64,000 nt of DNA, taken from NCBI GenBank assembly GCA_903897715.1, contig CAIUCS010000033.1:1-64000 (forward strand). Direction: 5' to 3'. Origin of the DNA: an uncultured Synechococcales cyanobacterium. GTDB lineage: Bacteria > Cyanobacteriota > Cyanobacteriia > CAIUCS01. Of this stretch, positions 20,602-26,817 are shown in pieces. The notes below the pieces were generated by a model. The model was given only the letters and a program-made list of their open reading frames with translations, made no database searches and was not told the origin of the DNA. Within the stretch, counting starts at the first letter, position 1; every line of letters starts with the position of its first letter. A program made the position numbers and the translations under genes.

Positions 20602-21330
20602 TTAGGTTTCGGTGTCATGAACCGGGGTATTTTCAGCCTGATCTGACCCTGCCTTTTCTTGGAGTCTCTGGGAACGCTTTTTCCGTTCAGACTGAACAGC
20701 CTCTTCAATTGCCAAACGGGCTTGGCTCATTTTTTCCAGGTTAGCGCGGTATAACTCTAAATCCTTTTGTAACTTATCGTCATTAAAACGTAGGGCTGAA
20801 GCAACTTTGCTGAGTACTTCAGCTCGTTTAGTATCATCCTTCACCAAATCAGCATCAGTTAATTCCAACAAGGTAAATAAGCCAATTCCAAATAGGCGAC
20901 TATACTTAAATTTAGTTCGGAGGGTGATTTGTTCAATAACTTTCCTCAGAACTGTGATATCTTGCCCTTCTGGTGGTTCTGTACCAGTCAAGGTAGAAGT
21001 AAGTGCTTCCAGCGATGTATGGCTACAGAGAGTTTGTAATGTTTCTGCATCTTGAAGAAAACGAACTGGATCGTCATTTAAGGCAGTACATAAACTATTA
21101 AAAATGGACGTGGATTCACGGTCAGGTTGATAACCCAACATAAATCGATTGAACGTAGTTACCACTCCTAAGGCAAAGATTGGATCGTAGTAGAAATCAA
21201 CATTCACTGAAAGTAAATGGATTTCCACCATTAATTCATCCACTACCCGGCGATAGATGGAGTTGATCGGGCGGGTATAGAGGGTGTAAAAGGCACGTTT
21301 AGTATCCGATACGGTGCGAGGGCTAGTCAC
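20602..21330 (-). CDS. thf1: Thf1/Psb29, photosystem II biogenesis and thylakoid formation protein
   Basis: Soluble, mostly helical protein that binds FtsH proteases and is needed for normal thylakoid and photosystem II biogenesis. The 242 residues show the family core: TVSDTKRAFYTLYTRPINSI, RVVDELMVEIHLLSVN, YDPIFALGVVTTFNRFM and FKYSRLFGIGLFTLLEL. A C-terminal coiled coil (LEKMSQARLAIEEAVQSERK) follows, with a short acidic tail. The start is GTG at 21330, which gives the conserved N terminus. Monocistronic as far as can be seen; 284 non-coding bases lie upstream. Confidence 0.95.
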   Translation of the reverse strand: MTSPRTVSDTKRAFYTLYTRPINSIYRRVVDELMVEIHLLSVNVDFYYDPIFALGVVTTFNRFMLGYQPDRESTSIFNSLCTALNDDPVRFLQDAETLQTLCSHTSLEALTSTLTGTEPPEGQDITVLRKVIEQITLRTKFKYSRLFGIGLFTLLELTDADLVKDDTKRAEVLSKVASALRFNDDKLQKDLELYRANLEKMSQARLAIEEAVQSERKKRSQRLQEKAGSDQAENTPVHDTET

Positions 21331-21614: not shown

Positions 21615-22973
21615 TCAAAGAGAGTGGGTAACCATCCGAAATCCGGCATGTTGATAAAAATTGGGACGGAACCAATTCCGATAACTGGGCATCGCTTGAG
21701 CTCCACAGGTTATCCAGGAACCGCCAATCATCATTTGATGTTGGGTGTCAAAATAGGAAGCCGAGTAATCTGGGTATAGAAAATGAGGTTCATACCCAGG
21801 TAGGGGAGTCAGGTGGTCACTTAACCATTCCCAGACATTACCATTTAAATCGTAGATACCAATGTCATTTCGAGACGTTTCCAGTGACCCCACCCCATGG
21901 GGAGAGCCAAATTGACCATCAAGGTTATAACCGCTTATGGATTGGGGATGGTGGGTCAAATCAGAGGCTATCCGTTGCCACTCTCCCTCCTTCATCAGGC
22001 GGGTATGTTTCCCAGAATGGTGACCATACCAACGGCAATAGGCGATCGCTTCATAGTAATTGATTTCAACGGGATAGTTCAGGGGCATTGCCAATTCATC
22101 AAATAATGCTCGATACCGATAGGTGCCAGGGGTTTGGGAATCTGCAGTCCAGAATTGGGGATGGACGCTGTGATGTTCAGTCTTCCATTGCCAAGCATCA
22201 GCCGACCAGTAGGATGGTATTTCGTAACCCCCTGCTTTAACAAACTCCAGAAATTCAGCATTAGTAATCAGATATTTGCTAACTTGGAATGGTTCCACCT
22301 GAAGCGGTCGATAGCCATAATCAATATCCCAGCCATAGGTGCTGTCATTCCAGGATTTACCCAAATGGACAACTCCTCCTTCAACGGAAATCCATTCATT
22401 GGAACGCGGACAATCATGATCAGGTAAATACTCCCAACCATCAGGACATTTGAGCATTGTTATGGGCAGTTGCCGGATGAGTACGGAGGAAGTTTCAATG
22501 TGGATATACTGATGTTCCATTGCCATCATTAATGCCCAAAGGGGATGAGCAGGGGTAATGGGGGAACTGAAATCACTCCTGTGAATCAAAGCGGTAATGG
22601 AATCATAGACAGCCTGACGATAATGCCAAACCGAGGGTAGGTCAGTGGAACGCAACCGGGAAAATTGACCAGCAATTTCATCAGGCTTTTGGGGATCAAC
22701 TCCAACGGCAAACATATCTTCATAGTGGGAATCTAACCCTGTTTGGATTAAGCCAACCCCCATCAGTTTATTGATATAAAAAACAGCGGTATGCCCCAGG
22801 TAGAAAATTAGTACGTTGCGTAGGGGATCAGGGTTGGTGTAAAAGGGTTCATCCCCCACCAGACTATTCCATAGCCTGTCTTCTAGCATCCAAGCTCGTT
22901 GGTAATAGGTCAAAATTGCCTGAGGATCGCAGGAATCTAGACGGGGTGGGGGGAGGGAAATAGCTTGGTTCAT
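21615..22973 (-). CDS. egtB: iron-dependent sulfoxide synthase (EgtB/OvoA type)
   Basis: Non-haem iron enzyme that inserts a C-S bond between a histidine derivative and cysteine. The N-terminal DinB-like domain has the three iron-binding histidines: H61 in YLGHTAVFYINKL and H154/H158 in MEHQYIHIE (HX3HXE). The C-terminal formylglycine-synthase-like domain runs from WISVEGGVVHLG to FYQHAGFRM. The N-terminal half (DEPFYTNPDPLRNVLIFYLG, SSVLIRQLP) resembles OvoA more than mycobacterial EgtB. However, OvoA's fused methyltransferase is absent and an egtD gene lies just upstream, so hercynine is the likely substrate. Probable operon with egtD and a PLP lyase. Confidence 0.88.
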   Translation of the reverse strand: MNQAISLPPPRLDSCDPQAILTYYQRAWMLEDRLWNSLVGDEPFYTNPDPLRNVLIFYLGHTAVFYINKLMGVGLIQTGLDSHYEDMFAVGVDPQKPDEIAGQFSRLRSTDLPSVWHYRQAVYDSITALIHRSDFSSPITPAHPLWALMMAMEHQYIHIETSSVLIRQLPITMLKCPDGWEYLPDHDCPRSNEWISVEGGVVHLGKSWNDSTYGWDIDYGYRPLQVEPFQVSKYLITNAEFLEFVKAGGYEIPSYWSADAWQWKTEHHSVHPQFWTADSQTPGTYRYRALFDELAMPLNYPVEINYYEAIAYCRWYGHHSGKHTRLMKEGEWQRIASDLTHHPQSISGYNLDGQFGSPHGVGSLETSRNDIGIYDLNGNVWEWLSDHLTPLPGYEPHFLYPDYSASYFDTQHQMMIGGSWITCGAQAMPSYRNWFRPNFYQHAGFRMVTHSL

Positions 22974-23040
22974 GATTTGCCATTACAAATCTGGATAGTT
23001 TAGAACTCCAAAAAAAGTGAAGTTGGTTAAAGCTTATTGA

Positions 23041-24066
23041 TTATCGACGGCACAGAATAACTCCAAACCATTGTTTCGGGTCAGTCCAAATTTGCAAGGG
23101 TGACAGTCCGTGTGTTTGCAAATACTGCTGCATTTGCTGTAAATTAAATTTTCGGGAAATTTCGGTGCGAATACCCTCTCCCTGAGCCAGTGTGATGTTC
23201 AGATTTATTGTTTTTAACTCTACTGACTGGGCTTGGTGACAGTGTAAATACATTTCAATCTGACAATCTACGGGGTTGTAGATGGCTTGATGGTGAAAGA
23301 ATTCTAGGTTAAAATTACCCCCATAGCGATAATTAAGATGACGGAGCATATTCAGGTTAAAGTCGGCTGTAACCCCTTGGCTGTCGTTATAAGCCGCCTC
23401 CAGAATAGCCCTATCCTTTTGCAGGTCAATCCCCAATAAAACATAATCCCCGGCATCTAGGGCAGTGGTGACCTGGGTGAAGAATTGGTCGCACTGGAGA
23501 GGAGTCAAGTTACCCAGGGTGCTGCCCAGAAAGAGTAACATCCGAGGAGAAATGGTTGCCCTTGGTAATGAGATTAGGGCTTGTTCATAGGTTCCAACGA
23601 CAGCCTTCACCTTCAAGGTGGGATAGTCAATCAACAGTTGAGTCGCACTTTCCCTAAGCATCCCTGCACTCACATCAATGGGCTGGTAGGACAAGGGATA
23701 ACCGTAGGATTGATACGCATTGAGCAGTAAACGGGTTTTGGTAGAACTACCACTACCCAATTCTATGAGTTCACAGGAACCGGTTAATTGGGCGATCTCT
23801 GGGGCATAGTGGTGTAAAATCCAAGCTTCAGTCCGGGTTGGATAGTACTCCGGCAATTCACAGATTTGTTCAAATAGTTGGGAACCACGATCATCGTAAA
23901 AGTATTTTGGCGGTAAAACCTTGGGGTATTGCTCTAACCCCTCAACCACATCATGTCCTTCGGGCACTGCTTGGGGAAAGCAGGAAGACTGAAGATATAG
24001 GGTTTGTATGCGGTTGTCGGTGATTTCAAATGGCTCCCCCAAAGATACAGTGGGAGTGGATCGCAT
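23041..24066 (-). CDS. egtD: histidine N-alpha-trimethyltransferase (EgtD)
   Basis: SAM-dependent enzyme that methylates histidine three times to hercynine, the first committed step to ergothioneine. The 341-residue protein has the EgtD signature YFYDDRGSQLFEQICELPEY and YPTRTEAWIL near residue 60, SAM motif IELGSGSSTKTRLLL near 103, and FLGSTLGNLTP near 178. The C-terminal substrate domain contains NMLRHLNYRYGGNFN, and RTEISRKF supplies residues that in EgtD contact the substrate carboxylate. Sixty-seven bases separate it from the sulfoxide synthase downstream, supporting co-transcription. Confidence 0.93.
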   Translation of the reverse strand: MRSTPTVSLGEPFEITDNRIQTLYLQSSCFPQAVPEGHDVVEGLEQYPKVLPPKYFYDDRGSQLFEQICELPEYYPTRTEAWILHHYAPEIAQLTGSCELIELGSGSSTKTRLLLNAYQSYGYPLSYQPIDVSAGMLRESATQLLIDYPTLKVKAVVGTYEQALISLPRATISPRMLLFLGSTLGNLTPLQCDQFFTQVTTALDAGDYVLLGIDLQKDRAILEAAYNDSQGVTADFNLNMLRHLNYRYGGNFNLEFFHHQAIYNPVDCQIEMYLHCHQAQSVELKTINLNITLAQGEGIRTEISRKFNLQQMQQYLQTHGLSPLQIWTDPKQWFGVILCRR

Positions 24067-24173
24067 GGATTCGTTGAACTGATATACGACTAAGTTGACA
24101 ATTAACTATAACTACCATATCAGGAAAAGTGTTTCACAAGATACAAGAAATTTTATCGAGCATCTACTCCATA

Positions 24174-24202
24174 GGGTGCATCCCAATTAATTGGGATACT
24201 CT
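24174..24202 (-). mobile_element. minimal family B inverted-repeat relic
   Basis: Only the two terminal parts of family B remain, back to back: GGGTGCATCCCAATT and AATTGGGATACTCT, giving a 29-base near-palindrome. Flanks CTCCATA (left) and ATCCATA (right) look like a decayed target duplication. It ends at the stop codon of the methionine gamma-lyase-family gene and lies between that gene and egtD. Confidence 0.55.
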
Positions 24203-25461
24203 CAATCCATACTCCCTAGTGGCACAGAATCATCAAGCTTCAAAATTGCCTGGACTGCTGCATCCAAGGCGATCGCCACATGACTCCAGTGGGTACCGCC
24301 TTGGCAAAAGACCAAGTAGGGTTCTCGCATCGGACCATCAGCGGATAATTCAGAAGTACTACCATCAACAAATGTTCCCCCCGCCATAATCAACTGACTC
24401 TCGTACCCGGGCATAGCGGCGGGAACCGGATCTAGGTAAGACCCCACTGGAGAGTTTTGTTGAATGGCACGGCAAAATGCAATTAATTTCTCCGGTGACC
24501 CCAGTTGAACTGCTTGAATCACATCTCGACGGGGGCTGAAGGGGTCTGGTTTAACCGGATACCCTAATTGTTGGAAAACATGGGCAATTAAATGACTCCC
24601 TTTCATCGCCTCCCCAACCATTTGGGGTGCTAAAAATAAACCTTGAAACAACCAACGGTTTTGTTCAAATGTAGCTCCACCGCAACTACCAATCCCTGGG
24701 GCAGTCAACCGGCATGTCGCGGCTTCCACCAATTCTCTTTTACCTGCCACATATCCTCCCGCTGTCACAATGGTTCCTCCGGGATTTTTGATCATCGAGC
24801 CAGCAATCAGGTCAGCACCCACTTCAGGAGGCTCCCTGGTGTCACTAAATTCGCCATAACAATTATCAACGAAGCAAATAAGTTGGGGCTGCTGACGTTT
24901 GACAACGGCGATGATCTGGGCAATGTCTTCAATAGAAAGACTGGAGCGCCAAGAATATCCACAGGATCGTTGAATCAAGACCATCCGGGTTTGGGGTTGA
25001 ATTGCAGTATTGAGGGAAAACCAATCAACCTCACCTCTGCTTGTTAAGGGCACTTCACGGTAACTGATGCCAAAATCCTTCAAGGAACCCTGCCCGTCTC
25101 CCCGTAAACCAATTACCTCCTCTAACGTATCATAGGGAGCCCCTGCCACTGCCAACAACTCGTCCCCGGGGCGTAAAATACCAAACAACCCACAGGCAAT
25201 GGCATGGGTGCCTGAAACAAATTGAATCCGTACAGCTGCAGATGGCGCTCCCATCACCTGTGCAAAAACCTGATCCAATACTTGCCGCCCCAAGTCATCA
25301 TGCCCGTAACCACTGACACTCCCAAAGTGGTGAGACCCTACCCGTTGGGAACGAAAAGCAGTTAATATTTTAAATAAGTTTTTCTTAACTTGATGATCAA
25401 TCTCCCTAAAAATAGGCAGTAATTCTTTTTCTGCCTGGTGCACATATTCAGAATGACTCAT
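24202..25461 (-). CDS. methionine gamma-lyase-family PLP enzyme (aluminium-resistance protein family)
   Basis: A 419-residue fold-type I PLP enzyme of the Met_gamma_lyase family (PF06838 type). Visible are SGYGHDDLGRQVLDQVFAQV, QFVSGTHAIACGLFG, the LAVAGAPYDTLEEVIG loop, VDNCYGEF for the PLP pyridine contact, and the Schiff-base lysine in AGSMIKNPGGTIV. The C terminus has GTFVDGSTSELSADGPMREP. The natural substrate of this family is unclear despite its name. It is the first gene of the run leading to egtD and egtB, so a C-S lyase role in finishing ergothioneine is an attractive inference. The family is also widespread in cyanobacteria outside this context. Confidence 0.88.
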   Translation of the reverse strand: MSHSEYVHQAEKELLPIFREIDHQVKKNLFKILTAFRSQRVGSHHFGSVSGYGHDDLGRQVLDQVFAQVMGAPSAAVRIQFVSGTHAIACGLFGILRPGDELLAVAGAPYDTLEEVIGLRGDGQGSLKDFGISYREVPLTSRGEVDWFSLNTAIQPQTRMVLIQRSCGYSWRSSLSIEDIAQIIAVVKRQQPQLICFVDNCYGEFSDTREPPEVGADLIAGSMIKNPGGTIVTAGGYVAGKRELVEAATCRLTAPGIGSCGGATFEQNRWLFQGLFLAPQMVGEAMKGSHLIAHVFQQLGYPVKPDPFSPRRDVIQAVQLGSPEKLIAFCRAIQQNSPVGSYLDPVPAAMPGYESQLIMAGGTFVDGSTSELSADGPMREPYLVFCQGGTHWSHVAIALDAAVQAILKLDDSVPLGSMD

Positions 25462-25983: not shown

Positions 25984-26817
25984 ATGACTGTTGCCACTTC
26001 GCCCAAGCTTAACCTGTCCTGGTCAATCATCCTTTTCATGGCTATTGTTCATCTAGGAGCTCTTTTCGCCCTGCTTCCTAGTAACTTGAACTGGAACGCA
26101 TTTTGTTTAATGTTGCTTTTACACTGGATTACTGGCTGTCTGGGGATCACCCTGGGATTCCATCGTTTAGTTGCCCATCGAAGCTTTCAGACTCCTCGAT
26201 GGCTTGAGTATTTGTTGGTTTTCTTTGGTTGCTTGGCGTGTCAAAGTGGTCCGATTGAATGGATTGGCTTACATCGACACCATCACCTCTATTCTGACCA
26301 AATGGTCGATCATCATGATTCAGGAAAGGGGTTTTGGTGGAGTCATATTCTGTGGATGTTTTATGAGGTTCCTGCCAAAAAAGAAGTCTCCAAATTCACA
26401 AAAGATATTGCCCATGATCCCTTCTACCAGTTTTTAGAAGCCTACTTTTTACCCATTCAAATCACATTTGCGATTATTTTATATCTGCTGGGTGGCTGGT
26501 CTTTTGTGGTTTGGGGTATTTTTATGCGGCTGGTGTTGGTTTATCACTGTACTTGGTTTGTAAACAGTGCCACCCATAAATTTGGTTACCGTACCTATGA
26601 TGCTGGTGACCGGTCTACCAATTGTTGGTGGGTGGCTATACTGACCTATGGGGAAGGGTGGCATAATAATCACCATGCCTTTCAATACTCAGCACGCCAT
26701 GGATTAAACTGGTGGGAGTTTGATTTGACCTGGTTAATTATTAAGCTTCTTGAATTCTTCGGGTTGGCAAGTAAAGTCAAACTCCCTGGTAAGGAAGCTG
26801 TGGAACTAAGATTATAG
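25984..26817 (+). CDS. desC: acyl-lipid/acyl-CoA delta-9 desaturase (DesC type)
   Basis: Membrane di-iron desaturase that puts the first double bond into C18 or C16 acyl chains, essential for membrane fluidity and cold acclimation in cyanobacteria. The 277-residue protein has the three histidine boxes in order: HRLVAHR near residue 60, HRHHHLYSD near 97, and GEGWHNNHHAF near 222. Four or so hydrophobic segments lie between. The box spacing fits DesC (delta-9) and not the DesA or DesB subfamilies, where the second and third boxes differ. An AT-rich upstream region with TATAAT suggests its own promoter. Confidence 0.92.
   Translation: MTVATSPKLNLSWSIILFMAIVHLGALFALLPSNLNWNAFCLMLLLHWITGCLGITLGFHRLVAHRSFQTPRWLEYLLVFFGCLACQSGPIEWIGLHRHHHLYSDQMVDHHDSGKGFWWSHILWMFYEVPAKKEVSKFTKDIAHDPFYQFLEAYFLPIQITFAIILYLLGGWSFVVWGIFMRLVLVYHCTWFVNSATHKFGYRTYDAGDRSTNCWWVAILTYGEGWHNNHHAFQYSARHGLNWWEFDLTWLIIKLLEFFGLASKVKLPGKEAVELRL

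Follow-up and report, generated by a model that had tools for sequence, protein, structure and literature searches.

The three co-oriented genes described here very probably amount to an egtD/egtB-IV pair for ergothioneine synthesis whose C-S lyase is likely to be encoded elsewhere, together with a PLP-enzyme gene, a member of PF06838, that lies beside the pair by local coincidence rather than as part of a conserved operon. The pair itself is unremarkable, and the conserved gene beside it probably has a different function. It lies in a 64,000-nucleotide stretch of a contig from an uncultured Synechococcales cyanobacterium, referred to below as the window. ORF calls in the window gave three complete minus-strand reading frames, for the PLP enzyme, EgtD and an iron sulfoxide synthase, in the order that the original prediction had given them; all are real genes, correctly placed and with strong family matches. 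The PF06838 gene is separated from egtD by 135 bp and egtD from the synthase gene by 67 bp. The features of the locus and its borders are:

20602-21330, minus strand: psb29/thf1, the downstream neighbour, outside the pathway (PF11264 and TIGR03060)
21615-22973, minus strand: egtB-IV, OvoA-derived iron sulfoxide synthase of the EgtB-IV clade, 452 aa (TIGR04344; best PDB match 8VIH)
23041-24066, minus strand: egtD, histidine N-alpha trimethyltransferase that makes hercynine, 341 aa (TIGR03438, PF10017)
24180-24197, no strand: perfect 18-bp palindrome ATCCCAATTAATTGGGAT, directly past the stop codon of the PF06838 gene and not terminator-like
24202-25461, minus strand: PF06838 (YnbB/COG4100-like) PLP enzyme, 419 aa (PF06838; PDB 3HT4)
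25984-26817, plus strand: DesC-like fatty acid desaturase gene, divergent to the PF06838 gene (PF00487)

Going by family membership, EgtD would trimethylate histidine to hercynine and EgtB-IV would place cysteine sulfur on C2 of the imidazole to yield the sulfoxide; the final, PLP-dependent C-S cleavage would then fall to an enzyme probably encoded elsewhere. In mycobacteria this last step belongs to EgtE, a member of the PF00266 superfamily. No canonical egtE was found over the TIGR04343 cutoff in any of 116 cyanobacterial genomes, this one and 115 others, TIGR04343 being an equivalog model with a strict 400-bit cutoff by which distant EgtE relatives would be missed. The original prediction had held that a C-S lyase is needed and that none is evident, and had named a true EgtE at some other locus of the genome as evidence against its proposal; the first point is correct, and no such EgtE came to light over the cutoff here or in the other genomes. 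The gap is real and was recognised before: a 2023 review reports that egtE has not been identified in cyanobacteria (PMC10295655), and our search of open-access papers returned no gene assigned to the role. That cyanobacteria make ergothioneine, yet according to the review have no reported egtE, with which the present searches agree, is the useful remainder of this analysis.

Genome context does not solve the last step, since none of the multi-locus ORF clusters from 40 egt loci, which represent the genes that recur beside egtB/egtD, resembled a PLP lyase; these clusters, mostly named by eye, appear to be EgtD, the synthase, a DUF427-like ORF and transporter genes, with egtC in type-I loci. 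Yeast given only the upstream gene made some ergothioneine, the last step perhaps being supplied by a host activity or proceeding abiotically (PMC11993508). Several unlinked PLP enzymes, PF06838 among them, are possible candidates for it; this genome has 12 matches to aminotransferase class I/II alone. In a separate observation, the best matches to the EgtE model among the cyanobacteria searched were L140 (in G321) and L141 (in G302), which at 169-171 bits, cutoff 400, stand above nearly all the rest and are possibly distant EgtE relatives.

That the last step is carried out by some other unlinked PLP enzyme, for example the ortholog of the L-cysteine/L-cystine C-S lyase C-DES, is a specific form of the preferred explanation rather than its opposite, and one we regard as unlikely. 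The C-DES ortholog of this genome (L006, on contig C133 of G000) matches PDB 1ELQ with E=2.9e-121, belongs to PF00266 and matches the EgtE model weakly, and orthologs occur in 103/116 genomes. Its score against the EgtE model, 57 bits, is however below that of this genome's own SufS (75 bits); C-DES is near-universal, genomes without egtD included; and it was not found at E<=1e-60 in five genomes that have egtD (G301, G311, G342, G359 and G367). C-DES is thus plausible as EgtE, but not as a pathway-specific enzyme.

The PLP enzyme encoded beside egtD matches PF06838 over its full length (644.8 bits, positions 3-404 of 405), with Lys225, in the motif GSMIKN, as its Schiff-base lysine. Its closest solved structures are those of 'aluminum resistance'/YnbB proteins (PDB 3HT4, E=8.1e-130), and it shares its full-length match and Schiff-base motif with the rest of that PF06838/COG4100 family, which includes YnbB, synpcc7942_2562 and the structures 3JZL and 3FD0; with the Synechococcus elongatus member it also shares a divergent desaturase neighbour, desC in that organism. 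It differs from the family in having egtD and egtB directly downstream. Its earlier assignment to a methionine gamma-lyase family is right as the Pfam name, but not in the sense of the NCBIfam methionine gamma-lyase models, the best of which gives 47.6 bits against a cutoff of 666. Like mycobacterial EgtE (TIGR04343; structure in PMC10805701) it is PLP-dependent, and it is by hypothesis a candidate for the same reaction; unlike EgtE it belongs to PF06838 and is not hit by TIGR04343 at E<=0.001, so that its placement in a family other than that of EgtE was correct. Of the 156 columns in which at least 95% of 99 PF06838 orthologs agree, it departs from the consensus at three (L223M, L270W and L378M, two of them conservative), other orthologs differing at a median of 1 and a maximum of 15 of these columns; by this indirect test we see in its sequence no clear sign of an active-site specialisation.

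PF06838 is present in 289/292 genomes of the phylum, and by our control lists both Synechococcus elongatus and Bacillus subtilis have PF06838 and lack egtD; since it is near-universal with or without egtD, it does not track the ergothioneine pathway. A metabolomics study likewise found egt homologs absent from S. elongatus PCC 6301 (PMC3826126), and in PCC 7942 the PF06838 homolog synpcc7942_2562, which adjoins desC, is a gene on which biofilm formation depends (PMC12647202). Two draft genomes, G237 and G383, carry egtD and have no detectable PF06838, for which assembly gaps are a possible cause.

Gene neighbourhood points the same way. Neither egtD nor an OvoA-type synthase gene was present in the flanks of any of 80 named PF06838 loci, of which 72 offered at least 3 kb of downstream sequence and 57 at least 8 kb. 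A divergent desaturase gene, by contrast, lies within 1.5 kb of PF06838 in 67/77 named loci with enough upstream sequence; it is the usual, ancestral neighbour of the gene, and the window retains it. Viewed from the other side, none of 40 egt loci (9.5-19 kb each) includes PF06838, and in the 37 other genomes that have egtB-IV, PF06838 never comes within 10 kb of it: where the two are on one contig they are 370 kb to 3.8 Mb apart, and in the other 28 genomes they are on separate contigs. Given the lack of any such adjacency in the other genomes and loci, the PF06838-egtD-egtB array is, within our sample, confined to this genome. Nor is one such case surprising, since a rough estimate from about 18 PF00266, PF00155 and PF06838 genes among ~2,800 genes per genome, two neighbour slots and about 38 egtB-IV genomes leads us to expect 0.4 to 0.5 adjacencies of a PLP enzyme and egtB-IV by chance. 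The arrangement would be accounted for most simply if PF06838 were an old housekeeping gene in its usual spot by the desaturase, downstream of which, in this lineage, the egtD-egtB pair came to lie.

The central proposal of the original prediction, that the PLP enzyme is a non-homologous replacement for EgtE that entered the egt operon in this lineage and converts hercynylcysteine sulfoxide to ergothioneine, must be judged improbable in the face of these data. The gene does adjoin egtD on the same strand with no terminator called between them, it encodes a PLP enzyme whose relatives are C-S lyase-like, and no canonical egtE came to light in the cyanobacteria searched. But PF06838 is held whatever the egtD status of the genome, including by two organisms that have no egtD; its adjacency to egtD occurs in one genome among those sampled; the window copy shows no clear specialisation; and the two drafts with egtD and without detectable PF06838, assembly gaps permitting, add to the case against it. 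Replacement of EgtE by PF06838, for which the single-genome adjacency is the sole support, accordingly strikes us as quite unlikely, and there is equally little likelihood that PF06838 is the missing C-S lyase in a normally unlinked form, joined to egtD-egtB here by chance or selection. The count of co-occurrence across cyanobacteria that had been suggested as a check turned out against the proposal, and as a pathway-specific EgtE PF06838 was rejected, being unsupported by distribution, synteny or clear sequence specialisation.

PF06838 and egtD may possibly be co-transcribed in this genome, as they share a strand, the gap that separates them is short and no terminator was called in it. Co-transcription in a single genome, if real, would not show a shared function. 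The core of the palindrome in the gap, ATCCCAATTAATTGGGAT, occurs once in the window.

The preferred reading, an ergothioneine pair with its lyase probably elsewhere, draws its positive evidence from the two remaining genes. On its sequence, the synthase is an EgtB-IV, a kind already described. It scores 523.9 bits (cutoff 400) against TIGR04344, the NCBIfam model of the OvoA N-terminal part, and its top PDB matches are EgtB-IV structures (8VIH, E=5.6e-156; the next, 1.6e-147), of which there are five entries (8VIG, 8VIH, 8VII, 8VIK and 8VIL), with OvoA itself (8KHQ) third at E=6.5e-89. In a maximum-likelihood tree with one bona fide OvoA only, on a long branch, it pairs with L036, to which it is 62% identical, and lies with L036 and the f27 genomes in a 21-row EgtB-IV clade with support of 100/99. 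At 52 diagnostic columns, conserved in EgtB-IV and different in OvoA, it has the EgtB-IV state in 45 and the OvoA state in 3. His61, His154 and His158 are its candidate iron ligands, a role suggested by analogy with the EgtB family. The reading frame ends past the synthase domain, with no methyltransferase domain in it, and the next gene is psb29. The enzyme therefore resembles OvoA minus its methyltransferase because it is a member of EgtB-IV: the earlier description of an OvoA-like synthase that lacks the fused methyltransferase was accurate, and what it describes is the known EgtB-IV. Its synthase domain is homologous to that of OvoA (8KHQ), from which it differs in having no C-terminal methyltransferase and in its residues at the diagnostic columns. 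A reading of the locus as one for ovothiol or 5-thiohistidine, with a true OvoA, is very improbable: the model whose cutoff the synthase passes is named for 5-histidylcysteine sulfoxide synthase, but the OvoA methyltransferase is neither fused nor adjacent, the diagnostic columns are overwhelmingly those of EgtB-IV, and egtD adjoins the synthase gene, as it does across the EgtB-IV clade generally.

Between these two genes lies an unexceptional egtD (TIGR03438, 403 bits, cutoff 290.9; PF10017, E=2.7e-117). As had been proposed, it is paired with the synthase gene, lying immediately upstream, and the EgtB-IV route to which such pairs belong has been described already; the majority of egtB-IV loci that we examined have egtD adjoining the synthase gene. 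The window thus resembles the cyanobacterial egtD/EgtB-IV pathway in having, beside egtD, an OvoA-derived synthase with no methyltransferase and with EgtB-IV diagnostic residues, and differs from it in the upstream PF06838 gene, which is absent beside the other sampled egtB-IV loci. For canonical EgtC, nothing in this genome exceeded the cutoff of 218.65 bits (top score 49), in keeping with cysteine being used directly. Recruitment of an OvoA-type enzyme for ergothioneine by a small cyanobacterial group is, in what PMC9516567 and PMC11993508 relate of it, the finding of Liao & Seebeck 2017, and the EgtB-IV/EgtD pair of the window adds one more lineage to this known case of convergent evolution. 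Among 242 cyanobacterial genomes EgtD exceeds its cutoff in 200 and an OvoA-type synthase is found in 39.

Some egtB-IV loci depart from the paired arrangement. In L153, L165 and L168 no egtD is present in the flanks fetched (about 8-9 kb per side), and in G056, the genome of L165, egtD lies about 280 kb from egtB-IV, so that the pair is not always linked. L172 (8702-10078, in G321) encodes an OvoA/EgtB-IV-related synthase with DinB_2 and FGE domains that at 379 bits falls below the cutoff; an ISL3-type transposase gene lies downstream of it, and no egtD is detectable in G321.

Near egtB-IV/egtD of the Nostocaceae type, L150 (12465-13988) encodes an ABC transporter in which a permease is fused to an OpuAC binding domain (PF00528 and PF04069); similar ORFs, in a size range of 508-519 aa, are present in L154, L155, L157 and L159, the domains having been tested in L150 only, and in some loci of this type an ABC ATPase ORF is also nearby. 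We take the fused transporter to resemble the ergothioneine transporter EgtUV. Loci with the other EgtB type (L174, L175, L176, L177, L179 and L183) have by eye an egtC-like ORF, a class II amidotransferase of 262 aa, which does not recur in egtB-IV loci and which fits gamma-glutamylcysteine or glutathione as the sulfur donor in the loci that carry it.
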